Shown: piece by piece, positions 5,975-33,768 of the stretch
Layout: every line of letters starts with the position of its first letter
How positions within the stretch are numbered: the first letter of the stretch is position 1
Assembly (NCBI RefSeq): GCF_030646925.1
Contig: NZ_JAUSKL010000087.1
Span: forward strand, 1-64,000
Length of the DNA stretch: 64,000 nt
Direction of reading: 5' to 3'
Source of the DNA: Candidatus Binatus sp.
Lineage (GTDB): Bacteria > Desulfobacterota > Binatia > Binatales > Binataceae
Made by a program: the position numbers and the translations under genes
Notes under the pieces: model-generated
Told to the model about the DNA's origin: nothing
Databases searched by the model: none
What the model saw: the letters and a program-made list of their open reading frames with translations, nothing else

Positions 5975-8665
5975 TCATTTCCTTTTTGCAAGCTTCCTCA
6001 GCTCCAGCACCGCGAGCGGTATCAGGCCGAGAACTATCCACCAAACGCATTGGGCAAGCGTGACTGGCTCGATCCCAAAGAGCAGCTCCAGCAGCGAAAG
6101 ATGATGGATAATGAGCTGCAATCCAAAGCTCGCGGCCACGACCGCAAACAGCCGGAGATTCGAGAGCAGGCCGATCTCCCATACCGTCCGGACGTTGCTG
6201 CGCGCCCCAAACGAGCGCATCAATTCCGCGATGACCAGCGCGGAGAACGCGGCATTGCGCGCATCCATCACGCTGCCGTCAACGTAGAGCTCCCAGGCGA
6301 AAGCCGTTATCGCGACTCCGGCCGTAAGACATCCCGTCAAAGCGATCAACCCGAAGAACCCGCGATCCATGATCTCGGACTTGGGATCGCGAGGGGGCCG
6401 CGCGAGAACGTCGGCGTCGATCGGGTCGGTCGCGAGGGCCAATGCCGGAAGCCCGTCGGTAACCAGGTTGATCCACAGCAGCTGAATTGGCAGAAGCGGC
6501 AAGGGCCAACCGATCACTGCGGCAATCAGCATTACCGCCAATTCCCCGGCGTTCCCGCCCATCAGGTAACTGAGTGTCTTCACGACATTGTCGTATATGC
6601 CGCGGCCTTCCTCGACGGCCGCGACAATCGATGCGAAGTTGTCGTCCGTCACTATGATGTCGGCGGTCTGCTTCGTCACTTCGGTGCCTGTAATTCCCAT
6701 CGCAACACCGATGGACGATTCCTTGAGAGCTGGCGCATCGTTGACGCCGTCACCGGTCATCGCGACCACGACGCCACGCGCCTTCCACGCGCGAACGATG
6801 CGGAGTTTGTGTTCGGCCGTGGTCCGCGCGTACGCGCACACTCGCTCGACCCGATCCGCGAGTTCAGCATCCGTCATCATCTCGAGATCGCGTCCAACCA
6901 GAACCTGGTCCGCGTGTTCGATGATGCCCAGCTCGCGGCCAATCGCACGTGCCGTGTCGGGATGGTCACCGGTGATCATCACGACCTTGATTCCCGCGAT
7001 TTTGCACTTGCGGATTGCTTCCCGAGCCTCCGCGCGAGGAGGATCCTGCATCCCGACAAGGCCAAGGAGTGTCAGGTCTAGCTCGATGTCTTCGGGTGAG
7101 CCATCTAGCGAAGAGGTGATCGGCGAAAACGAATCGAGTCTCCGCTGCGCGAAAGCGAGCACGCGCAGGGCTTCACTGCCCATCAGCGCACTCGCCTCAA
7201 GCATCCGGGCGCGGTCAGCGTCGCCAAGTTTCGTGACACCGCTCGCGGTGCGAACCTGAGCGCAGCGTTCGAGGATCACCTCGGGTGCGCCCTTGACGAA
7301 CGCCCACGGGTTTTCATCGCGGCGACGAATCACCGTCATTCGTTTCCGATCGGAGCTGAACGGGACCGAGCCCAGCTTCGGCATCGCCGTATCGATTGCT
7401 TCGCGGGAAAAACCCGCCTTCGCGCCCGCGACCAGCAGAGCACCTTCCGTTGGGTCGCCAATCACGGTTTCTCTACCGTCACGCCGCGCAAGCTGCGCAT
7501 CGTTGCAAGCGACAGCCGCGGTAAGGAGGTCGGCAAGCAACGGATCGTTACTAGTCCTCGCTTCGGCGCCATCCGAGAAAATCGAGCCGACGGTTGAGTA
7601 GCCCTCGCCGGTGACGTTGTAATTGCGCGCGCTTGTGATGATCCTGCGCGCAGTCATCTCGCCAACCGTGAGAGTCCCCGTCTTGTCGGTGCAGATGACC
7701 TGGACGCATCCGAGGGTTTCGACCGCCGGCAGTCTGCGCACCAGCGCGTTGCGTCGCGACATCCGCTGTACGCCAAGCGCGAGCGCGATCGTTACGACCG
7801 CGGGCAGGCCCTCGGGGATTGCAGCGACCGCTAGACTCACCGCCCCGAGAAACATCTCGAATGCCGCAACTCCTCGCAGAATTCCCAGGAGGAAGACCAC
7901 GAGGACGATCGCGAAGCAGGCCCACAACAGCCGCTTGCCCACCCCGTCGAGTTTCTGTTGGAGCGGCGTTTCCCCGCTGGAGGCGGTTTCAAGCAGTGTC
8001 GCGATGTGCCCGACCTCGGTGTTCATCCCGGTTGCAATCACCAGCGCGGCGCCCGTGCCGGTGGCGACACTGGTCCCGAGAAAGGCCATGTTGGTCCGTT
8101 CGGCGAGGGGAGCGTCGGCTGAACATTCTCCGGTTCGCTTTTGAACCGGCTCAGACTCGCCGGTAAGAGGAGCCTCGTTGGTCCGGAGCATCGAAGTCTC
8201 GACCAGGCGCGCGTCAGCGGCGATCAGATCGCCCTCGCCGAGAACGAGGAGATCGCCGCGCACGATTTGTGCCGCCGGCACGATTTCGGATTTGCCATCC
8301 CGAATCACGCGAGCGCGCGGCGCCGTAAGGCGCGCCAACGCGGCGACTGCCTGCTCGGCGCGGTACTCCTGAAAAAAACCGATCCCGGCATTCAAGATGA
8401 CGATCGCGATAATTACGGCGCCATCGACGCGTTCGCCGAGCGCCGCGGACACTACCGCGGCTCCGATCAACACCCAAATGACGAGACTCTCGAATTGCCA
8501 CAGGAATATCGTCAATCGCGAGGCATGCTCGGCTTTTCGAATTTCGTTGCGCCCATCGCGCGCAAGTCGGGCGGCGGCTTCGTCGGACGATAGACCGTGC
8601 GCCAAGTCGCTGCGGAGTTCCGAGACGACTTGCGCAACCGTGAGCTCGTGCCAGTGTTGATTCAT
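5975..8665 (-). CDS. P2A-type cation-transporting ATPase (calcium-pump family)
   Basis: A complete P-type ATPase of about 896 residues. In order it shows an N-terminal cation-ATPase domain (MNQHWHELTVAQVV), actuator motif TGESEP (about residue 170), M4 motif AAIPEGLPAVV (about 285), phosphorylation site DKTGTLT (about 328), nucleotide-binding KGAPE (about 458), hinge TGDGVNDAPALK (about 640) and M6 NLVTDGLPALALATDP. The PEGLP and M6 Asn/Asp pattern is that of SERCA/PMR1-type Ca2+ (or Mn2+) pumps, not the CPx heavy-metal pumps. I place the start at the ATG 4 bases after the RND stop; an ATG 45 bases further upstream is in frame but overlaps the RND gene. It is the last clear member of a four-gene efflux operon, an unusual partner for a Cus/Czc-type system. 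Confidence 0.92.
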   Translation of the reverse strand: MNQHWHELTVAQVVSELRSDLAHGLSSDEAAARLARDGRNEIRKAEHASRLTIFLWQFESLVIWVLIGAAVVSAALGERVDGAVIIAIVILNAGIGFFQEYRAEQAVAALARLTAPRARVIRDGKSEIVPAAQIVRGDLLVLGEGDLIAADARLVETSMLRTNEAPLTGESEPVQKRTGECSADAPLAERTNMAFLGTSVATGTGAALVIATGMNTEVGHIATLLETASSGETPLQQKLDGVGKRLLWACFAIVLVVFLLGILRGVAAFEMFLGAVSLAVAAIPEGLPAVVTIALALGVQRMSRRNALVRRLPAVETLGCVQVICTDKTGTLTVGEMTARRIITSARNYNVTGEGYSTVGSIFSDGAEARTSNDPLLADLLTAAVACNDAQLARRDGRETVIGDPTEGALLVAGAKAGFSREAIDTAMPKLGSVPFSSDRKRMTVIRRRDENPWAFVKGAPEVILERCAQVRTASGVTKLGDADRARMLEASALMGSEALRVLAFAQRRLDSFSPITSSLDGSPEDIELDLTLLGLVGMQDPPRAEAREAIRKCKIAGIKVVMITGDHPDTARAIGRELGIIEHADQVLVGRDLEMMTDAELADRVERVCAYARTTAEHKLRIVRAWKARGVVVAMTGDGVNDAPALKESSIGVAMGITGTEVTKQTADIIVTDDNFASIVAAVEEGRGIYDNVVKTLSYLMGGNAGELAVMLIAAVIGWPLPLLPIQLLWINLVTDGLPALALATDPIDADVLARPPRDPKSEIMDRGFFGLIALTGCLTAGVAITAFAWELYVDGSVMDARNAAFSALVIAELMRSFGARSNVRTVWEIGLLSNLRLFAVVAASFGLQLIIHHLSLLELLFGIEPVTLAQCVWWIVLGLIPLAVLELRKLAKRK

Positions 8666-8669
8666 GAGT

Positions 8670-11600
8670 TTACGTTTGCCGGGATTGCGCGCTGGCAAGC
8701 CCGTGCTCACGCCAGATTACATAGATCGCTGGAATCACCATCAGCGTCAGCACGGTCAGCGACACGAGTCCACCCCAAAGCGGCGCCGCGATTCGCTTTG
8801 CCACGTCCGATCCGATTCCCGTAGCGAACATAATCGGGATGAGCCCGAAGATGTTCATTCCGACTGCCATTAGGAGTGGTCTCACGCGGGCGACTGCCGT
8901 TTCGTGCGTCATCTGAACTAAATCCTGACGACTGCGAAGACGGCCTTCAGCCAGCCACTGCCGATAGCCCTCATCGAGATAGATCACCATGATCGATGCG
9001 GTCTCGGCCGCTACACCGAGCAGCGCGATCAGTCCGACCCAGACGGCGATCGAAGTGTTGTACCCGAGCGCATACATCAGCCAGATCGATCCCATCGCAG
9101 CGCACGGCACGGAGAACAGCACAAGCAGCGCCTGAATCCATCCACCGAAGTTCACGTAGAGGATCATCAGGATGATTCCGACCGTGAGCGGAATCACGAT
9201 TTGCATTCGCGCTCGCGCGCGCTCCAGAAACTCGTACTGTCCGGTCCACTTGAGAAAGTAGCCGGGCTTGAGTTTCAATTCGCGCGCGACCACCCGCTTC
9301 GCGTTATCGACGTACCCGCCAATGTCTCTGCTGGTGGTATCGACGTAAACCCATCCGCTGAGCGAGCCGCCTTCGTCCTTGATCATCGGCGGGCCCATCG
9401 TCGCGACGATTCGCCCGAGCTGGCCCAGCCGGACGTGCGCGACGCGCTCGCCCGGTGACATCGCGCCATCAGGCCCGCCCTGCTTCATTTGATCTGCTGG
9501 CATACCTGGTTGATTCGCGCGCTGCCTGGGAATCGGCACCAGCACGCGGGCAAGCGCCTCGGGGCTGTCGCGCAACTCTCGCGGATAGCGGACGTTGATC
9601 CGGTATCGCTCGCGTCCCTCAACTGTTGTGTCGAGGTCGAGCCCGCCGATCGCCGTCTCAACCACATTCATCACATCCATCAGCCGCAGTCCGTAGCGGG
9701 CGATCGCGTCGCGATCAGGTATGAAGTCGACGTAAAAGCCGCCCATTTCACGCTCCGCGTATACGGACCGCGTACCCGGGACGCTGCGCAAAATGCTTTC
9801 GAGCGATTCACCGATTTTCGCGATTTCGCCGAGATCGGGGCCGAAGATCTTCACGCCGATGGGTGTGCGGATGCCCGTCGTCAGCATATCGACCCGCGCC
9901 TTGATTGGCATCGTCCAGGCGTTCTGGAGACCCGGCATCGTAACCGCATCGCTCATTTCGCCAGTCAGCCGATCCAGCGTCATTCCAGGCCGCCATTCGG
10001 ATTTCGCCTTCAACGCTATCACCGTTTCGATCATCGAGAGCGGCGCGGGATCGGTAGGCGTCTCGGCACGGCCAGCCTTGCCAAACACGGATGCGACCTC
10101 GGGAAACTGTTTCAGCCGGCGGTCTTGTTCCTGAACCAGTTGCTTTGCCGCCTCGATTGAGATCCCGGGAACCGTGATAGGCATGTAAAGGAGCGTGCCT
10201 TCGTAAAGCGGCGGCATAAACTCTGAGCCGAGCCGCGAAAAAGGCACGATCGTGAGAACGAGCACCACGACGGTCCCGATCGCCAGCAGCCATCGATACT
10301 TAAGACAGACGCGCAGGACCGGCCGGTACACAGCCATACATGCGCGATTCACTGGATTCGACGCCTCGGGCCGAATCTTTCCTCGCACGAACAGAACCAT
10401 GAGCGGCGGTACCAGCGTGACCGAAAGAATGGACGCAAAAAGCATCGCGAAGGTCTTCGTGAACGCGAGTGGCTTGAAGAGTCGCCCCTCCTGGGCCTCG
10501 AGTGTAAACACCGGCAGAAACGAGATTGCGATCACCAGCAACGATCCAAAGATCGCAGGTCCCAACTCCTTTGCGGCCTGGATCACGAGTTCCGATCGAT
10601 CCGCATCGGGTCCCGCATGCTCCAGCTTCTTGTGAGCGTTTTCGATCAGCACCACGGCCGAATCGACCACGTCGCCGATCGCGATGATTATTCCCGCGAG
10701 CGACATGATGTTGGTCGTGAGGTGCATGTACGCCATCGGGATGAACGAGATGATGACCGCAATCGGCATCACGATCGCGGGCACCAACGCCGACCGCACG
10801 TGGAAGAGGAACAGGATGATCACCAGGCTGACGATGATCATCTCCTCCGCGAGGTTCTCGGTTAGCGTATTGACGGAGGCGCCGATCAGACCGGATCGGT
10901 CGTAGGTCGTGACTACGCGGACGCCAGACGGCATTGCGGATTGCATTTCCGCGAGCTTGGCCTTCACTCGCTCGATGACTGCCAGCGCGTTCTCGCCGAA
11001 GCGCATTACGACGATTCCGCCGACTGTCTCACCCTTGCCGTCGAGTTCCGCGAAGCCGCGCCGGATGTTCCCGCCGACCTGGATTCGCGCGATATCACCC
11101 AGCCTGACGGGAGTGCCGGCCGCGTTCGTCGCAACGACAATTTTCGCGATGTCATCGCGACTCTTGATGTATCCGCGGCCGCGAACGGCGTACTCATGTC
11201 CCGCGAGTTCGATCACGCGGCCGCCGACGTCGCCATTGGACATTCGCACTGCCTCTCCGATTTCGCTGATCGAGAGGTTGTAGGCCTGCAGACGGACCGG
11301 ATCGAGTTCGATCTGGTACTCCTTCTCGTAGCCACCGATACTTGCCACCTCGGCAACTCCGGGAACCGACGATAGCCAATACCGAAGCTGCCAATCCTGG
11401 AAGCTGCGAAGCTGCTGGAGGTCGTGCTGGCCGGTGTCGTCCACCAGCGCATACTCGAAGATCCATCCGACGCCGGTGGCGTCGGGTCCGATCTGCGGTG
11501 AAACACCGGGCGGCAGCTTTCCTTGCAACTTCGCGAGGTATTCGATTACGCGGCTGCGCGCCCAGTAGATGTCGGTGCCGTCCTGAAAGACGATGTAGAC

Positions 11601-15603: not shown

Positions 15604-15732
15604 GCGCTTAAAAAGATCGGATTAAGCGCAACCGCAGATGCGCTCGGGTCGCGCGCAGTTCATCTGCTAATATCGTGAAGCGAACGTCGCTTAACGTCGC
15701 GTGTCTGCGGACTTGACGCGCCGGGCGGGAAT

Positions 15733-18700
15733 TTGTCCGCCGACTCAGATGAACGGATCAATCAACGATTTTGCGCCACGCCCGCGCGGACCCCGCCGAC
15801 CAACGAGGCAAGTTTGAATCTGGTATTCCTGCGGGCCATGAAGGGCCCGGCCGCATCGTTCGCGCGAGATGCCGAGGAACCGATCCGTGCGGAACTGTTC
15901 AGTATCGAGCGTCTCGAAGAGCACGGCGAGACGCTGGCAGTTGCCCAGCGCGTTACGGACCGCCCCGGCGCAGGACGCCCGATGGCGTCGAGGGTACGCG
16001 CCAATGCACGGGTGCTGCTCGAAGTGTATCGCGGCACCGCCGCCGCGATTCGTGAGGAACGCGCTATCACTCCTGCGGCCGAATGGCTGGTGGACAACTT
16101 TCACGTCGTAGAGCAGCAGATTCGCGAAATTCGCGACGACCTTCCGCGCGGCTTCTATCGCCAACTGCCCAAGCTTGCGGACGGTCCGCTGGAGGGCTAT
16201 CCGCGCGTGTTCGGCATCGCGTGGGCCTTCGTCGCGCACACCGACAGCCATTTCGATCCGCAGACGCTCAGCCGGTTCGTGCAAGCCTACCAGCGAGTTC
16301 AACCGCTGACGATCGGTGAGCTATGGGCGGTCGCGATTACGCTCAGGATCGTGCTGGTGGAAAACCTCCGGCGTTTGGCCGCGCGCATCGCCGCCGAACG
16401 GACGGCGCGCCAGCAAGCCGACGCGCTGGCCGATCGATTGCTCGGAGACGGCGGCCGCGAGCCCGAGCCCGCCGCAACCGCCCTCAGGGCGTTGGCACGA
16501 TCGCCGCTGTCGGCGGCCTTCGCGGTGCAGTTGGTGCAACGCTTGCGCGATCAGGATCCCAAGGTGACGCCAGCGCTGCGCTGGCTCGATCAAAGGCTGC
16601 GGGAGCAGGGAACCACGGCTGACGAAATAGTCCGCACCGTGCATCACGGGCAGGGCGCGACCAACGTCACCGTGCGCAATGTGATCACCAGCATGCGCCT
16701 GATGTCGGCCGTCGATTGGGCGGAATTCTTCGAGAGCGTGAGCGTGGTCGATGCGGTGCTGCGGGCCGACAGCGACTTCGCCGCGATGGATTTCCCGACC
16801 CGGGATCGTTACCGGCATGCGATCGAGGAACTCGCGCGCGGTTCGGGGCATACCGAGATCGAGGTCGCTGAGCACGCGATCGCGGCGGCCAAACGCGCAG
16901 CGCCGGAAGGCCCCAATCGCGATGCGGCGACCGCTCGCCGCGAGCATGACCCCGGCTATTACTTGATCTCGCGCGGGCTTCATGCGGTTGAGAAAGAACT
17001 CGGATTTCGAGCCCCGATTCGCGATTGGATAGAGCGCGCCAACGCGGCGGCGGGAATCAAAGGCTATCTCGGAACGATCGCGGTCGTCAGCGCTCTTATC
17101 CTCGCGACGGCGCTATTCGCTATCGCCGAGGCTCACGTCCCCGAATGGACGCTGTTCATCCTCGCGATCGTCGGAGTAATCCCGGCAATGGACACTGCGG
17201 TGACGATCGTCAATCGCGCCGTCACGATTTGTATCGGCCCAGCATCGATTCCCGCGCTCGAGCTTCATGATGGAGTGCCGTCGAGCCTGCGCACGATGGT
17301 CGTGATGCCCACCTTGCTGACCACACCGGCGGAACTCGAAGAGCAGGTCGAGCGTCTGGAGGTTCATTATCTCGCGAGTCCCGACGGCGAGCTGCGCTTT
17401 GCGCTGCTCTCGGACTGGTGCGACTGCGCGACTGAGAGTGCAGCCGGTGACGACGAGCTGCTCGGCGCAGCCGCGGGCGGGATAGCTCGTTTGAACCTGC
17501 GTCACGGACCCGCCCCGGACGGCGAGCGATTTATCCTGCTCCATCGGCGCAGAGTCTGGGACGAAGCAGAAGGAAAGTGGATGGGATGGGAACGCAAGCG
17601 CGGGAAATTGCATGAGCTGAACCGATTGCTTCGCGGTGCGACCGATACCAACTTCATCGGCGTGGATGGCCGTCCGCCGCTCGTGCCGGCCGGTGTCCGC
17701 TACGTGATCACCCTCGACGCCGACACCCGGCTGCCGCGCGGCGCAGCCAAGCGGCTGGTCGGCAAGATGGCTCATCCGCTCAACGCTCCGCGCTTCGACC
17801 CGCAATGCGGCCGCGTGGTCGAAGGGTACGGGGTGCTCCAGCCGCGAGTCACGCCGTCGCTGCCGACCGGGCGCGAGGGGTCAGTTTTCCAGCGCGTATT
17901 TTCGAGCGCGAGCGGCATCGACCCGTACGCGTTCGCGGTTTCCGACGTGTACCAGGATCTACTCGGCGAAGGCTCCTACAGTGGCAAGGGAATTTATGAC
18001 GTCGACGTCTTTGAGGCGGCGCTCCGAGGGCGCGTTCCCGACAACACGCTGCTGAGCCACGATCTCTTCGAGGGCACCTTTGCACGCTCGGGATTGGCCT
18101 CCGACGTCGAGGTGGTGGAGGAATTTCCGTCCCGTTACGACGTTGCCGCAGCAAGGCAGCATCGATGGGCGCGCGGCGACTGGCAACTGCTGCCGTGGAT
18201 TTTGGGGCGCGGTCACGCCGTCGGCGAGGATCGCCGCCGCATGGGCGGTGACGGTACTAGCTCAGCGATTCCCGCCCTCGGGCGCTGGAAGATGATCGAC
18301 AACCTGCGCCGGACGTTATCTGCGCCGACCGCATTCATCGCGTTGATCGTGGGATGGATGCTGCCTTTTTCCGCCGCCCTGATTTGGACCGGATTCGTCA
18401 TCGCAACGATCGCGACCGCGCCGATGCTCCCGTTCATCACCGGAATCGTGCCGCGCCGCCTCGGGATCTCCAAGCGCAGCCACGTGCTAGCGGTCGGCGC
18501 CGATCTCGCCAGTGGATTGGCGCAGATCGCGATGCTGCTTACCCTGCTCGCGCATCAGGCATGGCTGATGACGGACGCGATTGCGCGGACCCTCAATCGG
18601 CTGTTGGTAAGTCATCGACGATTGCTCGAATGGGTGACCGGGGCGCAGGCAAAGTTGACGACCCGTCTCGATCTCCGCGGATTTTACCAGAGGATGGCCG

Positions 18701-21700
18701 GCGGCGTCGCGCTGGGGGCCGCGGCCGCGATTTTTGTAGCGTTTGAACACCATCGCGCCGGGTTGCTCGCGGTTCCATTCGTGCTCCTGTGGCTATTGGC
18801 GCCGGTGATCGCGCGCTGGGCCAGTCTTCCGCCGCCGATCGGCGGCGCCAAGCCGGTCTCGATTGCCGATGCGCGAGCACTCCGGCTAACCGCACGCCGC
18901 ACCTGGCGTTTCTTCGAGAAGTTTGTGACTGCGGAAGACAACCTGCTGCCGCCCGACAACTTTCAGGAAGTTCCGATTCCGGTTGTGGCCCATCGGACCT
19001 CGCCCACCAATCTCGGACTCTATCTTCTGTCGGTGATTGCGGCTCACGATTTCGGCTGGGCTGGTACGCACGAAACCATTGAGCGACTGGATGCAACGCT
19101 CGCAACGATGAATCGGCTCGAGCTTTTTCGCGGCCACTTCTACAATTGGTACGGAACCAGCGATCTGCGGCCGCTGGAACCCAGATACGTTTCCTCGGTG
19201 GACAGCGGAAATCTCGCGGGACATCTGATCGCGCTCGGTAACGCCTGCCGCGAGATGATTACCCGTCCGGTGCTGGCCCCGCAGCGGACCGCGGGAATCG
19301 AAGACCTGGTTGCGCTCACCCGTGAATCGCTCGGCATGCTCACCGCCGACCGCCGAACTCATATCGTCACGCCGAAGCAATTGGAGGAGGCGCTCGACAG
19401 CCTTTGCGCAGCGCTTCGATCGGAACCGCTAACTCCCGTGGCTGCTGCCGCGCAGATGGCGGAACTCTTGTCGCAGGCCGACTCCGTCAGCGACATCGCG
19501 CGAGCGCTAACCCAGGATCGCGCCGATTCGGAGAGTACCGAGCTCCTGGCCTGGGCGGAGTCGCTGCGCGGATGCATCTGGAGTCACCAGCGTGAGATCG
19601 AACTGCTGATACCCTGGGCGACTCTCGTCGCGCGCGACGGCGATGCTGCGTTCCGCGCGAAGGATTCGGGACCAATCTGCGCGGACGATGGGCTCGGAAT
19701 TCTATTCGACTCGGTGCCGACCCTGGCTACGCTGGCGGATCGGTGCGACCAGGCGACCGGCATACTGATGCATCGCAAGACGGAACTCGCGGCCACCCCG
19801 GGCGCGTCCGGAGGCTCGGTCGTACGAATCGACGCGATGCTCACGGCGCTTAAGAGTTCCGCGCACGCAGCAATATCGCTCGAACGGCGTTTGACCGAGA
19901 TCGGCGCAACGGCGGGCAGGATGTTCGACGCGATGAAGTTCGACTTTCTTTTCGACCCCGCGCGCCAGTTACTTTCGATTGGATATCGCGTCACCGACGG
20001 CATTCTGGACCCGAACTGTTACGACTTGCTCGCATCGGAAGCGCGGCTTGCGAGTTTTGTCGCAATCGCGAAGGGCGACGTGCCGGTCCGTCACTGGTTC
20101 CGGCTGGGGCGCGGCCTGACTCCAGTGGTTCGAGGTTCTGCGCTGATTTCATGGTCGGGATCGATGTTCGAGTACCTGATGCCGTCGCTGGTGATGCGCG
20201 CTCCGCTCGGGAGCCTGCTCGAACAGACCAACCGGTTAGTGGTTCGCCGGCAGATTAAATATGGCGCGGAGCTTGGAATGCCGTGGGGCGTTTCGGAATC
20301 CGCATTCAACGCGCGCGATCTCGAACTCACCTATCAGTACTCGAACTTCGGGGTGCCCGGGCTCGGGCTTAAGCGGGGCCTAAGTGAGAACGCGGTGATT
20401 GCTCCCTACGCGACGGCATTGGCGGCGATGGTCGATGCGGAAGCGGCAGTGCTGAATTTCGCTCGGCTATTGCTGGCCGGCGGTCTCGGCCGCTTCGGCT
20501 GGTATGAAGCGCTCGACTACACGCCCTCGCGGGTGCCGGAAGGTGAGACGGTCGCGATCGTGCGCGCCTATATGGCGCATCATCAGGGCATGACCCTGGT
20601 CGCGATCGCTGATGCGCTGCTCGATGGCGCGATGCGCGCGCGCTTTCACTCCGAGCCGATTATTCAAGCAACCGAGCTGTTGCTCCAGGAACGGACGCCG
20701 CGCGACGTCGCGGTTGCTCGCCCGCGTGCCGAAGAGGTCAAAGCCGAAGGCAACGTTCGCGAGATCACGGTGCCGACGATTCGCCGCTTCCATTCGCCGC
20801 ACGACCTGATCCCGCGCACCCATCTGCTGTCTAACGGCAATTACACGGTGATGATCACCGCGGCCGGCTCGGGGTTCAGCCGATGGCGGGAGATGGCGGT
20901 GACGCGCTGGCGCGAAGACGTTACCTGCGATTCGTGGGGTTCGTACATTTTCCTGCGCGACGTGGGCAGCGGCAAAGTTTGGTCGGCGGGTTACCAGCCG
21001 AGCGGCGTCGAGGCGGACAGCTACGAAGTCGAGTTCTCCGAGGATCGGGCGGAAATCGTGCGCCGCGACGGCGCCCTGACCACCACGCTCGAAGTAGCGG
21101 TCTCGGCGGAGGATGACGCGGAGGTTCGGCGCGTATCGATCTCGAATCTCGGCAACCGGGTTCGCGAGATCGAGCTGACCTCGTACGCGGAAGTGGTACT
21201 GGCGCCCGACGCGGCCGACGCCGCGCATCCGGCCTTCTCCAAGATGTTCGTGCAGACCGAGTTTGACGCCGACATCGGCGCGTTGCTGGCGACCCGGCGG
21301 CTGCGCTCGCCCACCGACGCACCGATCTGGGCGGCACATCTGGCGGTGGTGGAAGGCGAGTCAATCGGCGAGGTCCAATTCGAAACCGACCGCGCGCGCT
21401 TCCTTGGCCGCGGTCGCGACGCTCATATGGCGATTTCGGCAACCGACGGACGGCCGCTTTCCGATACGGTCGGCACAGTACTCGATCCGATCTTCAGTCT
21501 TCGCCGCCGAGTTCGAATACCGGCGGGCGCCACGGCGCGGGTGGCCTTCTGGACGATGGTCGCGCCGACCCGTGCGGAAGTGCTCGACCAGGCTGACAAA
21601 CATCACGATTCCAACGCGTTCGAGCGCGTGTTGACGCTCGCGTGGACGCAGGCGCAAGTGCAGTTGCATCACCTGAGAGTGGGTGCCGATGAGGCGCATC

Positions 21701-24657
21701 TATTTCAGCGTCTGGCAAATCGCGTGCTCTATTCGGATCCGACCCTGCGCCCTTCGCCCGACGTGCTGAAGCGAGGTGAGGGCGGCCCATCGAAGCTGTG
21801 GGGGAGTGGAATCTCGGGCGATCTGCCAATCGTGCTGGTGCGCATCGATGAAGCCGAAGATTTGGAGATCGTCCGCGAGCTGGTGCGCGCCCACGAATAT
21901 TGGCGGATGAAACGGCTCGCCGTTGATCTAGTGATTCTGAACGAGCGCCCGCCGTCCTACGATCAGGATCTGCAAGCCGCGCTGGAGGCGTTGGTCCGGA
22001 CCAACCTGGCGCGCCCGAAATTCGACGGTGAAGGCACGCGCGGGAGCGTGTTTGTCTTGCGCTCCGAGTTGGTTTCGGTCGAGGTGCGAAGCCTGCTTCA
22101 GAGCGTCGCAAGAGCGGTGCTGCTAAGCCGGCGCGGGACGCTCTCCGAGCAGGTCAAACGCCTCGAGATGTTCGAGCCGGCTGCCGCCCCGCCGCCGCGG
22201 CGGGCACCGATGAACGGCCAGATCCAGAGCGCACCCGCGCGCCGCGAGATCGAGTTCTTCAATGGGCTCGGCGGATTCGCAAAAGACGGTAGCGAATATG
22301 TCACGACTCTCGGCGAGGGTCAGTGGACGCCGGCGCCGTGGATCAATGTGATCGCCAATTCCTCGTTCGGCTTCCAGGTCTCGGTCGAAGGCGCGGGTTA
22401 CACCTGGTCGGTCAACAGCCGCGAGAATCAGATCACACAGTGGTCCAACGACCCGGTCGGCGACCGCCCAAGTGAGGTGATTTACGTCCGCGATGAGGAT
22501 AGTGACGAGCTGTGGGGCCCGAGCGCGCTGCCGATTCGCGAGGATGGCGCGCCGTACGTGGTTCGCCACGGTCAGGGCTACAGCGTTTTCGAGCACAGCT
22601 CGCACGGGGTCTCACTTGAGCTGCAGCAATATGTGCCGCTCGACGACTCGATCAAGATTTCGCGCCTCAAGATTCGCAACCTCTCCACCCGAGTCCGGCA
22701 TCTCTCGGTCACGGCTTATGCGGAGTGGGTGCTTGGCACTGCGCGCGGCGCCTCGGCGCCATTCGTGGTAACCGAGCTCGACGCCGAGACTCGCGCGATG
22801 TTCGCACGCAATCCATTCAGCAATGAATATGGAAGCAGGGTGGCATTCGCGGACTTGAACGGCCGTCAACTGTCATGGACCGCCGACCGCACGGAGTTTC
22901 TAGGGCGCAACGGCACACTCGACAATCCGGCCGCACTCGCGGACGGGAGGCCGCTCTCGAACCGCGTCGGCGCCGCGCTCGATCCATGTTGCGCGATGCA
23001 AACTCCCTTGCATCTCAGGCCGAATGGCGAAGCCGAAATCGTTTTCTTTCTCGGCGAGGCGGCGACCAGGGCCGACGCAGTTTCCTTGATAGCAAAGTAC
23101 CGAAGCATCGATCTCGACGCAGTGCTGGCCGACGTCACGCGGCGCTGGAACGACGTGCTTGGCGCCGTCCAGGTGAAAACACCCGATCGCTCCATGGACA
23201 TCATGCTCAACCGATGGCTGCTCTATCAGACCCTCGCCTGCCGCGTATGGGCGCGATCTGCGTTCTACCAGGCGAGCGGAGCTTTCGGCTTTCGCGATCA
23301 GCTCCAGGACGTCATGGCCTTGACCGTGGCGCAGCCGGCGCTCGCGCGGGAGCATCTGATCCGCGCCGCCGCGCGCCAGTTCGCAGACGGAGATGTGCAG
23401 CACTGGTGGCTTCCGCCGCTTGGTCAGGGGGTTCGCACGCGGGTCTCCGACGATCGCATATGGCTGCCGTTCGCGGCGGCGCATTACGTCGAGGTCACCG
23501 GCGATCTCGCGATCCTGGATGAGACGGCGGCGTTTCTCGATGGCCCCGCTCTGCGCGATGACCAGCAGGAATCGTACTTTCAGCCGATGGTCTCCGAGCA
23601 ACGCGCAACGCTGTTCGAGCATTGCGCTCGCGCGCTCGATTTGAGTCTCTCGGTCGGCGCCCACGGGCTGCCGCTGATGGGTTCCGGAGACTGGAACGAT
23701 GGCATGAACCGGGTCGGTGAGAAGGGCAAGGGCGAAAGCGTCTGGCTCGGATGGTTCCTTTATACCACGCTCCTGACGTTCGCTGCGTTCGCGGAACGTC
23801 GCGGCGAGGAAGTGCGCACCGCGGCCTGGCGGAACCACGCAGCCGAACTTCGCGACTCGCTTAAGCGCTCAGGATGGGACGGCAATTGGTATCGGCGCGG
23901 ATACTTCGATGACGGAACGCCGCTCGGTTCGGCCGGAAGCATCGAATGCCGAATCGATTCGATCGCGCAGTCGTGGGGAGTAATTTCCGGCGGCGCGGAT
24001 CCCGCTCATGGGGCCGCCGCGATGGCGGCTGTCGACGAATACCTGGTGCGCAAAGAGGACGGCCTGGTACTGCTTTTCACTCCGCCATTCGACAAGACTC
24101 CGCTCGACCCCGGATACATCAAGGGGTATCCGCCCGGGATCCGCGAGAATGGCGGTCAATATACACATGGCGCAATCTGGTCAGTGATAGCGTTTGCAAT
24201 GCTCGGTGACGGCGATCAGGCCGGCGAACTGTTCTCGATTTTGAATCCAATCAATCACGCAAACACGCGCGCCGGTATGCAGCGCTATAAAGTCGAGCCC
24301 TACGTAGCCTCCGCCGACGTGTACTCGATGCCACCGCATGTCGGGCGTGGCGGATGGACCTGGTACACCGGCTCGGCCGGCTGGATGTATCGAGCGGGCC
24401 TCGAGTGGATACTCGGATTTCGTCTGCGGGACAAAGCGCTAGTCATCGAGCCGTGCATACCGAAGGCCTGGAAGGGTTTCGAGATGAGTTTCAAGTACCA
24501 CTCCGCGCGCTACGATATCGCCGTCGAGAATCCACGTGGCGTAAGCCGCGGAGTCACCCGGGCGGAACTCGACGGCGAGTTGCTGACGGCGGGCATGGCG
24601 CGGATCGATCTTTGCGACGACGCCGTCATCCATCGCGTCCGCATCGTCCTTGGCTGA
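15733..24657 (+). CDS. ndvB: Cyclic beta-1,2-glucan synthase (NdvB/ChvB-type)
   Basis: A giant inner-membrane enzyme of about 2974 residues, close to the known length of NdvB (about 2.8-2.9 k). Order: N-terminal region (IRAELFSIERLEEHGETLAV), membrane segments from about residue 445, a GT84 glycosyltransferase core with DADTRLPRG (about 661) and QHRWARGDWQ (about 808), more membrane segments, a glucoamylase-like domain (FYNWYGTSDLRPLEPRYVSS; RAYMAHHQGMTL), then two GH94 phosphorylase-like super-sandwich parts and the catalytic (alpha/alpha)6 region with GSGDWNDGMNRVG (about 2650). It polymerises UDP-glucose into beta-1,2-glucan and trims and cyclises it to periplasmic osmoregulated glucan. 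The start used is TTG; an ATG at 15838 is an alternative. It stands alone, with no exporter (NdvA) beside it. Confidence 0.93.
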   Translation: MSADSDERINQRFCATPARTPPTNEASLNLVFLRAMKGPAASFARDAEEPIRAELFSIERLEEHGETLAVAQRVTDRPGAGRPMASRVRANARVLLEVYRGTAAAIREERAITPAAEWLVDNFHVVEQQIREIRDDLPRGFYRQLPKLADGPLEGYPRVFGIAWAFVAHTDSHFDPQTLSRFVQAYQRVQPLTIGELWAVAITLRIVLVENLRRLAARIAAERTARQQADALADRLLGDGGREPEPAATALRALARSPLSAAFAVQLVQRLRDQDPKVTPALRWLDQRLREQGTTADEIVRTVHHGQGATNVTVRNVITSMRLMSAVDWAEFFESVSVVDAVLRADSDFAAMDFPTRDRYRHAIEELARGSGHTEIEVAEHAIAAAKRAAPEGPNRDAATARREHDPGYYLISRGLHAVEKELGFRAPIRDWIERANAAAGIKGYLGTIAVVSALILATALFAIAEAHVPEWTLFILAIVGVIPAMDTAVTIVNRAVTICIGPASIPALELHDGVPSSLRTMVVMPTLLTTPAELEEQVERLEVHYLASPDGELRFALLSDWCDCATESAAGDDELLGAAAGGIARLNLRHGPAPDGERFILLHRRRVWDEAEGKWMGWERKRGKLHELNRLLRGATDTNFIGVDGRPPLVPAGVRYVITLDADTRLPRGAAKRLVGKMAHPLNAPRFDPQCGRVVEGYGVLQPRVTPSLPTGREGSVFQRVFSSASGIDPYAFAVSDVYQDLLGEGSYSGKGIYDVDVFEAALRGRVPDNTLLSHDLFEGTFARSGLASDVEVVEEFPSRYDVAAARQHRWARGDWQLLPWILGRGHAVGEDRRRMGGDGTSSAIPALGRWKMIDNLRRTLSAPTAFIALIVGWMLPFSAALIWTGFVIATIATAPMLPFITGIVPRRLGISKRSHVLAVGADLASGLAQIAMLLTLLAHQAWLMTDAIARTLNRLLVSHRRLLEWVTGAQAKLTTRLDLRGFYQRMAGGVALGAAAAIFVAFEHHRAGLLAVPFVLLWLLAPVIARWASLPPPIGGAKPVSIADARALRLTARRTWRFFEKFVTAEDNLLPPDNFQEVPIPVVAHRTSPTNLGLYLLSVIAAHDFGWAGTHETIERLDATLATMNRLELFRGHFYNWYGTSDLRPLEPRYVSSVDSGNLAGHLIALGNACREMITRPVLAPQRTAGIEDLVALTRESLGMLTADRRTHIVTPKQLEEALDSLCAALRSEPLTPVAAAAQMAELLSQADSVSDIARALTQDRADSESTELLAWAESLRGCIWSHQREIELLIPWATLVARDGDAAFRAKDSGPICADDGLGILFDSVPTLATLADRCDQATGILMHRKTELAATPGASGGSVVRIDAMLTALKSSAHAAISLERRLTEIGATAGRMFDAMKFDFLFDPARQLLSIGYRVTDGILDPNCYDLLASEARLASFVAIAKGDVPVRHWFRLGRGLTPVVRGSALISWSGSMFEYLMPSLVMRAPLGSLLEQTNRLVVRRQIKYGAELGMPWGVSESAFNARDLELTYQYSNFGVPGLGLKRGLSENAVIAPYATALAAMVDAEAAVLNFARLLLAGGLGRFGWYEALDYTPSRVPEGETVAIVRAYMAHHQGMTLVAIADALLDGAMRARFHSEPIIQATELLLQERTPRDVAVARPRAEEVKAEGNVREITVPTIRRFHSPHDLIPRTHLLSNGNYTVMITAAGSGFSRWREMAVTRWREDVTCDSWGSYIFLRDVGSGKVWSAGYQPSGVEADSYEVEFSEDRAEIVRRDGALTTTLEVAVSAEDDAEVRRVSISNLGNRVREIELTSYAEVVLAPDAADAAHPAFSKMFVQTEFDADIGALLATRRLRSPTDAPIWAAHLAVVEGESIGEVQFETDRARFLGRGRDAHMAISATDGRPLSDTVGTVLDPIFSLRRRVRIPAGATARVAFWTMVAPTRAEVLDQADKHHDSNAFERVLTLAWTQAQVQLHHLRVGADEAHLFQRLANRVLYSDPTLRPSPDVLKRGEGGPSKLWGSGISGDLPIVLVRIDEAEDLEIVRELVRAHEYWRMKRLAVDLVILNERPPSYDQDLQAALEALVRTNLARPKFDGEGTRGSVFVLRSELVSVEVRSLLQSVARAVLLSRRGTLSEQVKRLEMFEPAAAPPPRRAPMNGQIQSAPARREIEFFNGLGGFAKDGSEYVTTLGEGQWTPAPWINVIANSSFGFQVSVEGAGYTWSVNSRENQITQWSNDPVGDRPSEVIYVRDEDSDELWGPSALPIREDGAPYVVRHGQGYSVFEHSSHGVSLELQQYVPLDDSIKISRLKIRNLSTRVRHLSVTAYAEWVLGTARGASAPFVVTELDAETRAMFARNPFSNEYGSRVAFADLNGRQLSWTADRTEFLGRNGTLDNPAALADGRPLSNRVGAALDPCCAMQTPLHLRPNGEAEIVFFLGEAATRADAVSLIAKYRSIDLDAVLADVTRRWNDVLGAVQVKTPDRSMDIMLNRWLLYQTLACRVWARSAFYQASGAFGFRDQLQDVMALTVAQPALAREHLIRAAARQFADGDVQHWWLPPLGQGVRTRVSDDRIWLPFAAAHYVEVTGDLAILDETAAFLDGPALRDDQQESYFQPMVSEQRATLFEHCARALDLSLSVGAHGLPLMGSGDWNDGMNRVGEKGKGESVWLGWFLYTTLLTFAAFAERRGEEVRTAAWRNHAAELRDSLKRSGWDGNWYRRGYFDDGTPLGSAGSIECRIDSIAQSWGVISGGADPAHGAAAMAAVDEYLVRKEDGLVLLFTPPFDKTPLDPGYIKGYPPGIRENGGQYTHGAIWSVIAFAMLGDGDQAGELFSILNPINHANTRAGMQRYKVEPYVASADVYSMPPHVGRGGWTWYTGSAGWMYRAGLEWILGFRLRDKALVIEPCIPKAWKGFEMSFKYHSARYDIAVENPRGVSRGVTRAELDGELLTAGMARIDLCDDAVIHRVRIVLG

Positions 24658-30633: not shown

Positions 30634-30813
30634 ATGGATTTTCATGGCATCGACCAAAGCACCACGCGGTCTCCGCGCCTGATGCTGCAAGCGCTCCTCA
30701 AACGGACCAGGCAAATCGAGTTGAATGGCAAGGTCGAGCGGCTGCGGTCAAACTTTCTCGCCGGTATCAAGCACATGCCGGTGCGCTTCACGGAGTCGCG
30801 CGCGGCGGCCTGA
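30634..30813 (+). pseudogene. Cytochrome P450 copy A: start joined to its last 47 codons
   Basis: ACGGAGG sits 5 bases before an ATG, a strong initiation signal. About 14 novel residues (MDFHGIDQSTTRSP) are followed directly by RLMLQALLKRTRQIELNGKV and the rest of the P450 C-terminus, ending TESRAAA. The same C-terminus ends P450 copy B at 33759. Everything between the N-terminal peptide and the last 47 residues, including the I-helix, ExxR and heme-Cys motifs, is gone. It may still be translated to a 59-residue peptide but cannot bind heme. Confidence 0.8.
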
Positions 30814-30822
30814 GTAAGAGTC
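30675..30822 (+). repeat. 148-bp direct repeat, left copy
   Basis: Gap-free match to 33621-33768 with only 5 differences that I can count (about 97% identity). It covers the last 45 codons of the P450 gene, its stop and the next 9 bases. The two copies flank the AAA ATPase/DUF4276 module plus P450 copy B. Confidence 0.97.
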
Positions 30823-30940
30823 CGGTATCACCGCGTATTTGGCTGAGTTTCTCTCCGCCCGCCGGTTCACCCGGTGCCCATTCCGCTTTACGGCAGCGTT
30901 TTTGAGATGGCTCGAACCAGAAGAATCGAGATGACCGGCC

Positions 30941-31084
30941 TCAGCCATAAGCGAGCATCCGCATTTCGGCGATCAGCGCCGCTTTGTCATCGCCTCCCTG
31001 CTTCATGGTGTAGCCTAAGAACCTTGCCGTCTCGCGTTGCCGCCCGTTCCCAAATCGTTCGCGGAATTGGGTTCCAACAGCTAG
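30941..31084 (-). pseudogene. Possible 3' end of an unknown gene, cut by the module
   Basis: On the minus strand the last ~48 codons read VGTQFRERFGNGRQRETARF then LGYTMKQGGDDKAALIAEMR and MLAYG, ending in TGA. The charged, helical composition looks like a genuine protein C-terminus. Upstream it merges with antisense of the ATPase gene and is not credible. I do not recognise the family. It may be what is left of a neighbour of the module, or part of its ancestral cargo. Confidence 0.25.
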
Positions 31085-31111
31085 CATGGAGCAACAAATC
31101 GGTAGGCGGTC

Positions 31112-32263
31112 TTGGAAACCGGAATCAGATTCACTCATATCGCACTGAGTAATTGGCGGAACTTCTCGCGAGCAGACGTTGGTCTGCGCAAGAGAGTCTT
31201 TCTCGCGGGTCCGAACGCGTCGGGGAAATCCAACTTTCTCGACGTGTTTCGGTTCCTTCATGACCTAGTGGCCGTCGGAGGTGGCTTTCAGGAAGCAGTG
31301 CTCAAGAGGCGAGGAGTGTCCTCACTTCGCTGCTACGCTGCTCGCCGGTATCCCGACATCAGCATCCAAGCTGACATTGGAACGGACGAAAATCTTGAGA
31401 TTTGGAAGTACGAACTGGACTTCAGCCAAGACAACAATCGACGGCCTTTCATAAAGAGAGAGGCCGTCTACCGGGCCGGAACCAAGATCCTAGACCGGCC
31501 TAACGAAGAAGATACCCGAGACCCGGCCCGTCTTAGGCAAACCTATCTGGAACAGGTGAATGTGAACCGAGAGTTTCGGGACATTTCCGATTTTTTCTTA
31601 TCGGTTCGCTATCTGCACCTAGTGCCACAGTTGGTTCGCGACCCCGACCGCTCAGTCGGTCGCCACGGAGACCCTTATGGTGGAGATTTCCTCGAGCAGA
31701 TAGCAAGCACCTCTGATAAAACTAGGGTCGCCCGACTTCGACGCATACTTGATGCTATGCGCGTGGCGGTTCCTCAGCTTAAAACACTAGAATTGTGGCG
31801 CGATGTGCGCGGCACTCCCCATCTTCGCGGGAGATATCAGCACTGGCGTGCGCATGGCGCATGGCAAACCGAGGATCAGTTCTCTGACGGAACGCTGCGG
31901 CTAATGGGTCTCTTATGGGCGGTTATGGGTGGGCCGGGAGTTTTGCTGCTGGAAGAACCCGAACTATCACTCCATCCTGAAGTAGTTCAGCACATTCCTC
32001 AGATGCTTGTCCGAGTGCAGCGCCGCTCGGGGGCTCAGGTGATGATCAGCACGCATTCCGGTGATCTGCTCCGGGACGAGGGCATTGGACTCGACGAAGC
32101 GCTCCTGCTAATCCCAGGCGCCGAAGGGACTACGGTTAAACCAGCCGCCGAATTTCAGCAGATCAAAGCATTGCTTGAGGGCGGCTCAAACCTCGCTGAT
32201 GCCGTGCTCCCACAGACCCGGCCAGCCAACGCTCAGCAACTCATATTCAAAATGGGCGACTAG
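31112..32263 (+). CDS. AAA family (AAA_21/OLD-like) ATPase, first gene of a putative defence module
   Basis: 383 residues from a TTG with AGGCGG 5 bases upstream. ABC/SMC-like ATPase: N-terminal FTHIALSNWRNFSRADVGL (the ALxNFxxF strand of RecF/OLD ATPases), Walker A GPNASGKSN (residues 33-41), signature-like FSDGTLRLMGLLWA (about 257), Walker B VLLLEEPELSLHP (about 277-289) and switch His in ISTHSGDLL (about 312). It has no C-terminal TOPRIM domain, unlike a one-piece OLD nuclease; the next gene could supply it. It is less GC-rich than its surroundings and inserted in a P450 locus. The most likely role is the sensor/motor of a two-protein anti-phage system, by analogy with AAA/TOPRIM pairs such as PARIS. 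Confidence 0.88.
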   Translation: METGIRFTHIALSNWRNFSRADVGLRKRVFLAGPNASGKSNFLDVFRFLHDLVAVGGGFQEAVLKRRGVSSLRCYAARRYPDISIQADIGTDENLEIWKYELDFSQDNNRRPFIKREAVYRAGTKILDRPNEEDTRDPARLRQTYLEQVNVNREFRDISDFFLSVRYLHLVPQLVRDPDRSVGRHGDPYGGDFLEQIASTSDKTRVARLRRILDAMRVAVPQLKTLELWRDVRGTPHLRGRYQHWRAHGAWQTEDQFSDGTLRLMGLLWAVMGGPGVLLLEEPELSLHPEVVQHIPQMLVRVQRRSGAQVMISTHSGDLLRDEGIGLDEALLLIPGAEGTTVKPAAEFQQIKALLEGGSNLADAVLPQTRPANAQQLIFKMGD

Positions 32264-32266
32264 CGC

Positions 32267-32881
32267 GTGGCGAACGGTGAGATCGTCATTACGGCTGCCG
32301 TCGAAGGTTCTCTTGACCAGGCCGTCGTTCAGCGGGTGGTCGAAGACGCAGGCGGAGCGCTCGGACCGGTCCACGGTCGGAAAGGAAAACATTATCTAAG
32401 GGACAAGCTCAGCGGCTTCAACAACGCAGCGAGGTTTTCTCCCTGGATTGTTCTGGTCGACCTGGACGAGGATGCGGAATGTGCTCCGGAGTTACGGCAG
32501 GATTGGCTTCCGCAACCTGCCGACTACATGCTCTTTCGCGTTGCGGTCAGAGAAGTCGAGGCGTGGATTTTCGGTGACCCCGAACGTCTCTCTCGGTTCC
32601 TCCGAGTGCAGCGCGGCAGAATCCCGAGTAATCCTGAAGCTCTGATGGACGGGAAGCGCGCGATGGTGGACTTGGGGCGCCTGTCGAAAAGTCGTGACAT
32701 TCAGGAGGACATGGTTCCCAGTCCCGGGAGCGGAAGGGCCGTCGGCTCTGGATACACCTCTCGGCTGAGCGAGTTCGTCCTCGACCGAACCCATGGCTGG
32801 AGGCCGCAAGTTTCAGCCGACGCGTGCAACAGCCTGCAGCGCTTGCTCGCCCGCCTGAGTGCTCTCGCTGAAGGACGGTAA
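32267..32881 (+). CDS. DUF4276 family protein, TOPRIM-like partner of the AAA ATPase
   Basis: 204 residues from a GTG 3 bases after the ATPase stop. Pattern of DUF4276: first strand with the acidic residue (VITAAVEGSLDQ, Glu 13), second strand WIVLVDLDEDAEC with Asp 65, 67 and 69, and FRVAVREVEAWIFGD (Glu 96, Glu 98). This Glu...DxD arrangement matches the TOPRIM metal site of OLD nucleases and topoisomerases, suggesting a Mg2+-dependent nuclease. With the preceding gene it makes a split OLD-like ATPase/nuclease. Its TAA overlaps the ATG-like start of the P450 fragment (TAATG), showing how sharply the module joins P450 sequence. The nuclease role is inferred from the pattern, not demonstrated. 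Confidence 0.85.
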   Translation: MANGEIVITAAVEGSLDQAVVQRVVEDAGGALGPVHGRKGKHYLRDKLSGFNNAARFSPWIVLVDLDEDAECAPELRQDWLPQPADYMLFRVAVREVEAWIFGDPERLSRFLRVQRGRIPSNPEALMDGKRAMVDLGRLSKSRDIQEDMVPSPGSGRAVGSGYTSRLSEFVLDRTHGWRPQVSADACNSLQRLLARLSALAEGR

Positions 32882-33759
32882 TGGAACATCGCAAAAGGCT
32901 GATTGAAGTGGCGCTGGCGCGCGGCGAATGCGATTTTGTGATCGACGTCGCGGCGCGGATGCCGATGGCGTTCATCTGCGAGATCATGGGCATCCCGCGG
33001 ATTGACTGGCCGGACATGTTCAAGTGGGGCAACATGATCGCCGGCTACGACGACGACGAGTATCAAGTCGAATCGGGATCGCCGGTCGATACCCGTCAGC
33101 AAGGCACGGTTAACCTGGGCAGGTATTGCATCAAGGCGGCGCTCGAGCGGCGGGGCGGAGACGGGGAAGACCTGTTGAGCGTGCTGGGCAACGCACGAAT
33201 CAATGGCCGCCTGCTGACAGAAAGAGAACTCGCGCACAACGGCACGCTCTAGGTGGGAGCGGGGCTCGAAACCACGCGCAATGCTATCTCGGCCGGGCTG
33301 CTCGCGTTGATCGAGCATCCGGCGGAGTTGGACCTGCTGCTGAAAGACGAAACGCTGATGCCGAGCGCGGTCGAGGAGATTCTCCGATGGTCCAGCCCGG
33401 TCACCCATTTTGCACGGGTGGCAATGAAAGATACGGAGCTGGGTGGCAAGCAGATTCATCAGGGAGACCGCGTGGTGCTCTGGTTTCCCTCCGCCAATCG
33501 CGATGAAGAGGTCTTCGCAAATCCTTACACCTTCGATATTCGGCGGACTCCTAACGAGCATCTCGCTTTCAGCAAAGGCGAACATTTTTGCGCCGGCGCG
33601 CATCTGGCGCGGCTCGAATTGCGCCTGATGCTGCAAGCGCTTCTCAAATGGACCAGACAAATCGAGTTGAATGGCAAGGTCGAGCGGCTGCGGTCGAACT
33701 TTCTCGCCGGTATCAAGCATATGCCGGTGCGCTTCACGGAGTCGCGCGCGGCGGCCTGA
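32881..33759 (+). pseudogene. Cytochrome P450 copy B: 5'-truncated and with a nonsense codon
   Basis: P450 sequence begins abruptly at EHRKRLIEVALARGECDFV, about residue 130 of a normal ~410-residue bacterial P450; the N-terminal third was replaced by the AAA/DUF4276 module. It reads on through FICEIMGIPRIDWPDMFKW to ELAHNGTL, where TAG (33250-33252) replaces an expected codon (probably TTG Leu) just before the I-helix VGAGLETTRNAIS. Downstream all is normal: EEILRW (ExxR), the heme-ligand loop FSKGEHFCAGAHLA and the C-terminus. Two independent lesions make it non-functional, although the GTG right after the TAG could start a C-terminal fragment. Confidence 0.9.
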
Positions 33760-33768
33760 GTAAGAGTC
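33621..33768 (+). repeat. 148-bp direct repeat, right copy
   Basis: Partner of 30675-30822 and identical in length; it covers the end of P450 copy B and 9 bases beyond. It may come from an old tandem pair of P450 genes or from a duplication that accompanied insertion of the module. Confidence 0.97.

Follow-up and report, generated by a model that had tools for sequence, protein, structure and literature searches.

In the genome of a Candidatus Binatus sp., two adjacent genes lie amid the remains of a P450 gene, and the question they raise is whether they form an anti-phage system that moves between genomes and, if so, of which kind. The window (the whole stretch of DNA analyzed, 64,000 nucleotides from contig NZ_JAUSKL010000087.1) was initially annotated as carrying a split OLD-like nuclease, in which an AAA_21-type ATPase devoid of a TOPRIM domain is followed after 3 bases by a DUF4276 protein. 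Both genes were recovered as annotated, on the same strand and in the order A then B:

31112..32263, + strand: HEC-01A, OLD/SMC-type ABC ATPase (AAA_21) of 383 aa, TTG start, Pfam AAA_21 E 5.2e-32
32267..32881, + strand: HEC-01B, DUF4276-type protein of 204 aa with TOPRIM-like acidic residues, GTG start

Identity of the gene pair

From our run of PADLOC, a check proposed in the initial annotation, the pair was named HEC-01A (PDLC04180, E 7.4e-154, residues 6-378 of 383) and HEC-01B (PDLC04194, E 9.1e-56, residues 6-201 of 204), the HEC-01A match being far above those to the AriA (1e-29), AbiLi, OLD, and GajA models. These specific matches place the pair in an already catalogued candidate system; it is thus not a new system but a clear new, intact, and solitary example of the candidate anti-phage system HEC-01. 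The acronym is short for Hma-embedded candidate, a name given to systems found between the genes of Hma operons (PMC12111858), Hma being an operon of helicase, methylase, and ATPase (PMC8565338). HEC-01 goes back to the work of Payne et al. on "genetically embedded" systems (bioRxiv 10.1101/2024.01.29.577857, to which PMC12111858 and PMC12988326 refer); activity of several HECs is stated in PMC12988326, where HEC-06 and not HEC-01 is named. Our literature search for DUF4276 found no paper, and that for HEC-01 returned mostly unrelated uses of the string, plus a genome survey listing HEC-01. The locus shares with the catalogued system the A-type ATPase and the B-type partner, adjacent, on one strand, in the same order, and with near full-length model matches; embedding in Hma is seen among homologues (loci L049, L040, and L047), whereas the window copy stands alone among metabolic genes.

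The claim that the architecture parallels PARIS, OLD, and Gabija with a different nuclease family is right as to the split ATPase/TOPRIM-like plan and the DUF4276-type partner, but the pair is a member of neither PARIS nor Gabija. Like PARIS, it consists of two genes, an ATPase and then a separate effector of TOPRIM type (TOPRIM-like for HEC-01B), and A matches the AriA models (E 1.1e-29 and 5e-14), far more weakly than HEC-01A; the PARIS effector AriB is, in contrast, a DUF4435 protein, and membership was rejected as B matches DUF4276 only. OLD and GajA have a related ABC ATPase, and B aligns with the active-site motifs of the OLD TOPRIM; here the TOPRIM-like part is a separate protein, which sets aside class 1 OLD, and Gabija was rejected because A has 383 aa with no fused TOPRIM and its downstream neighbor beyond B is a P450 fragment rather than a UvrD-like GajB. 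The model of A is closest in the PDB to PtuA structures of Septu and retrons, whose partner is the HNH nuclease PtuB; B is DUF4276-type with no HNH family match, and no reverse transcriptase is present. MADS was dismissed with a mad3 match far under the NCBIfam cut-off. HEC-04 (IbfA) likewise combines ABC ATPase and TOPRIM and came from the same embedding approach, but as a single fused protein instead of two genes; it is reported to protect against phages (PMC12111858).

The ATPase

The motifs of the ATPase are invariant, at the residues named, across 50 homologues:

31208..31231, + strand: Walker A GPNASGKS (aa 33-40), with G33, N35, A36, G38, K39, and S40 invariant
31883..31900, + strand: ABC signature-like SDGTLR (aa 258-263), with S258, D259, G260, T261, and R263 invariant
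31943..31960, + strand: Walker B (aa 278-283, ending EEP), with L279, E281, E282, and P283 invariant
32054-32056, + strand: H-loop, H315 invariant

In structural searches with the AlphaFold2 model of A (mean pLDDT 89.9), the best PDB matches were PtuA of retron/Septu complexes (E 2e-14), followed by SMC/Rad50 heads and GajA. The protein closes with 60 conserved residues and carries no TOPRIM domain. HEC-01A belongs to the OLD/SMC-like ABC ATPase group, and ATPases of the OLD type are commonly paired with nucleases of various kinds (PMC12839542).

The partner protein and its kinship to TOPRIM

The assignment of B to DUF4276 (Pfam PF14103) holds for the family, 59 of 66 homologues matching at E<=0.01, but the window protein alone scores 23.7 bits, under the curated cut-off of 30.2. 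The Glu/DxD acidic pattern that had been read from its sequence was borne out over 69 homologues:

32303..32305, + strand: E13 at the end of strand 1, proposed as the catalytic Glu, invariant, aligned with the VEG glutamate of OLD TOPRIM
32459..32467, + strand: D65-L-D67 at the end of strand 3, proposed as a DxD metal site, aligned with the DxD of OLD TOPRIM; D65 invariant, D67 is D in 61/69 (88%) and N in 8/69
32558..32560, + strand: E98 in REVEAW, past strand 4, proposed as the third acidic residue, invariant

The full set of invariant residues is E13, D65, C72, E98, W100, G160, Y163, and W178. The TOPRIM acidic residues leave C72, which lies five residues past the DxD, as well as W100, Y163, and W178 unaccounted for. 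In the confident AlphaFold2 model of B (mean pLDDT 95.3), four strands alternate with three helices, beginning and ending with a strand; E13 directly follows strand 1 and D65 closes strand 3, which are the positions of the TOPRIM acidic residues. By inspection, E98 lies 8 residues past a conserved F, the same spacing as that of the DLE-motif glutamate in DUF4435 proteins.

Profile comparison (hhalign) of B with three OLD TOPRIM domains gave a score of 29.6 (E 8e-4, with a probability of only 24%), in register, with E13 and D65-x-D67 paired with their counterparts; the maximum was 21.1 among 60 column-shuffled profiles and 21.9 among 360 unrelated ORFs, the latter read as single sequences. Against DUF4435, the score was 24.6 in the same register, not above that of its own shuffles (maximum 24.7). 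The OLD-like_TOPRIM model matched one of the 66 family members (E 3e-4). A Foldseek search of the PDB and of viral models returned nothing significant (best E 0.06 and 0.09), the weak matches including the Toprim of RNase M5 and a phage RloB-like protein; a PDB sequence search with the B profile gave chance matches only, and a scan of viral contigs with an OLD protein, intended to deepen the TOPRIM profile, returned no relative. The initial reading of B as TOPRIM-like is thus modestly supported by the acidic residues, the strand-helix order, and the in-register profile match, and not by a significant fold match. Judged from sequence and model, B is probably kin to TOPRIM, and probably a TOPRIM-like nuclease in fold and activity.

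Conceivably, the additional invariant residues (C72, E98, W100, Y163, and W178 beside E13/D65/D67) form a distinct, extended active site and HEC-01B represents a divergent class of TOPRIM nuclease. In that case, the split OLD-like plan of HEC-01 would have evolved separately, with a substrate and a trigger unlike those of PARIS; we offer this only tentatively and consider it somewhat improbable on balance. The invariant C72, W100, Y163, and W178 outside the acidic triad, the N at D67 in 8/69 homologues, and the lack of a significant fold match for B would also suit a defense pair in which B is not a nuclease, acting instead on nucleotides or proteins, or serving as a regulatory subunit while the activity comes from A. 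We regard that as unlikely: the acidic residues are invariant and placed as in TOPRIM, the OLD TOPRIM profile match exceeds all controls, and A belongs to a group whose partners are usually nucleases (PMC12839542).

A complex insertion site

The initial annotation had the pair inserted exactly into P450 sequence. P450 sequence does lie on both sides, but the insertion is not an exact one:

30653..30674, strand not assigned: 22-nt inverted copy of P450 33463-33484 (95% complementary), abutting the tail duplicate
30675..30822, + strand: duplicate of the P450 3' end on the left flank of the insert, 148 bp, 97% identical to 33621-33768
30823..30890, + strand: dispersed repeat, here cut short at the left junction, found by alignment, with further partial matches
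32881..33759, + strand: P450 pseudogene, first ~135 aa missing, Pfam p450 6.7e-25 (second half)

With intact P450 paralogues as tblastn queries, the alignment begins only at 32899, which lies close to residue 137 in an open frame of 427 residues; the paralogues read through the position where the window carries an in-frame TAG (33250-33252), which makes this P450 a pseudogene. As the right piece starts at 32881-32899 and the left piece is a copy of the 3' end (62% identical to the intact P450 C-terminus), the first third of the gene is missing and its tail is duplicated upstream. The dispersed repeat, whose truncated end coincides with the left junction, is partially matched at 11 other places in this genome, with 74-89% identity (contigs C8, C91, C20, C45, C21, C82, C94, and C89) and two in the congener G003. 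Two 45-aa P450 tails, in contigs C44 and C45, were considered as further mobile copies of the tail and set aside, since each sits at the end of its contig, probably as an assembly overlap. Overall, the pattern looks like an illegitimate or repeat-mediated, complex rearrangement. A search for the empty site by means of the flanking genes yielded no close relative whose P450 occupies this position, and neither a transposase gene nor a target-site duplication was recognized in the insert.

The pair was also described as less GC-rich than its flanks, and this is true of third codon positions: GC3 is 0.58 in A and 0.66 in B, whereas three neighboring genes have 0.77-0.83. Overall GC is only at the 10th percentile of the window. 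Given the broken P450 and duplicated fragments around it, the search for a sigma-70-like promoter upstream that found none, and the frameshifted copies borne by relatives, the pair here might be a non-functional remnant of the rearrangement. This is improbable, as HEC-01A and HEC-01B are both full-length frames that keep every invariant residue, and their GC3, still off the host value, fits a recent arrival.

Partnership and spread

We then scanned a genome collection with an alignment of A and kept the best 80 loci. In 74 of these, a B homologue (intact or in pieces) lies directly downstream of A on the same strand, and in the 72 cleanly readable loci, the B frame starts <=17 bases from the A stop or overlaps A. 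Among the six remaining loci, one contig ends 55 bases past A (L019) and five have lost or lack B (L046, L053, L057, L060, and L062). Conversely, among 395 genomes from the same phylum, 23 carry B, with A directly upstream in 22 of the 23. The partnership of A and B is thus strict and near-obligate, and the expected co-occurrence in other genomes was confirmed. Two Acidobacteria (L057 and L060, around 8001-9095) carry A without B beside an M16-like peptidase ORF, a shared arrangement which suggests a fixed B-less lineage. On a 78-kb viral contig (L154:5001-9135), B is absent next to the A homologue, after which come a second AAA ATPase and an apparent adenine methylase ORF; this gene order is possibly a different arrangement.

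On a tree of 50 A proteins sampled from 22 named groups, archaea included, the phylum label changes 36 times, and shuffling the labels gives 38.5 changes; phyla are thus spread almost randomly over the tree, which is indicative that the genes travel widely. Among closer relatives, the pair is absent from six congeneric genomes and, in the family, present in just three other genomes, in two of which the A gene is broken. A recent horizontal arrival in this genome is well supported. Viral contigs held five clear relatives of A, three of them with B; B was not matched in the plasmid collection, nor was A in the phage collection. The claim that the pair moves as a unit had been drawn from a misread insertion site; since neither transposase nor target-site duplication was recognized, the locus alone is no proof of such movement, but the survey of other genomes shows it.

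Neighborhoods of the pair

To compare neighborhoods, 143 ORFs adjoining the pair in many genomes were set against 142 ORFs located far from it on eleven of those contigs (E<=1e-15). Adjacent ORFs matched 164 PADLOC models and control ORFs 23, a ratio that overstates the difference because a single protein can match many models; the named neighbor genes are more telling. In L049, the order is HmaA, A, B, an AriAB-like ATPase, and HmaB, and in L040 and L047, HmaB directly follows B; type I specificity subunits, Fic, and Schlafen-type proteins are further neighbors of the pair. The expectation of defense-gene neighborhoods is therefore borne out in part: they are richer than matched control regions and include Hma operons, but many copies, that of the window among them, are solitary among housekeeping genes. 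The 45 other ORFs of the window gave a GlgB-type enzyme as their sole PADLOC match, and no other defense gene was recognized within the window. A further feature of the window is an open frame of 2992 codons (15679-24654) with GH94 catalytic, supersandwich, and glucoamylase-like domains, which resembles cyclic beta-1,2-glucan synthase.

The RecF/SMC-like ATPase, the many pairs beside housekeeping genes, and the precedent of Cran1, an archaeal OLD protein with a cell-cycle role for its OLD ATPase (PMC12796447), might suggest a mobile module for housekeeping or genome maintenance (repair or cell cycle), but the patchy distribution (none in the six congeners, 23/395 in the phylum, broken copies in relatives), the near-random A tree, and the pairs inside Hma operons make this the least probable of the alternatives.

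A proposed PARIS-like model for HEC-01

In PARIS, the tRNA-cutting effector AriB, a two-metal TOPRIM nuclease, is kept inactive by AriA, which sets it free on recognizing a phage protein (PMC12409363). By analogy, HEC-01 would most likely be an abortive-infection pair working in the same way, and the simplest model would be PARIS logic with a DUF4276-type effector. HEC-01A may assemble in an ATP-dependent manner, keeping hold of HEC-01B and sensing infection; upon the trigger, it would activate or release HEC-01B, a putative TOPRIM-like two-metal nuclease (E13, D65/D67, and probably E98) predicted to cut nucleic acid, and this cleavage could bring the infection to an abortive end. The intact genes, the strict partnership, the conserved ATPase motifs and acidic residues, the wide transfer, and the association with Hma and other defense genes are shown. 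We consider it likely that the HEC-01 pair is a two-protein, horizontally mobile candidate anti-phage system in which an ATPase assembly holds B, senses infection, and activates or releases the TOPRIM-like nuclease B so that infection is aborted. The original proposal of a split ATPase and TOPRIM-like nuclease as a candidate defense pair is sustained by co-occurrence, defense-richer neighbors, and the in-register alignment with OLD TOPRIM, though the pair is not new in kind.

What is new here is the supporting evidence for a TOPRIM-like effector; the pair is otherwise ordinary in kind and a useful test case. It turns the catalogue entry HEC-01 into a testable model with named residues (K39 of A; E13, D65, and E98 of B). 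Copies that, like this one, travel alone and away from defense islands would be missed by island-based surveys. In essence, the pair, which is found in many bacterial phyla and in archaea, adds to the ATPase-plus-nuclease designs seen repeatedly in bacterial immunity.
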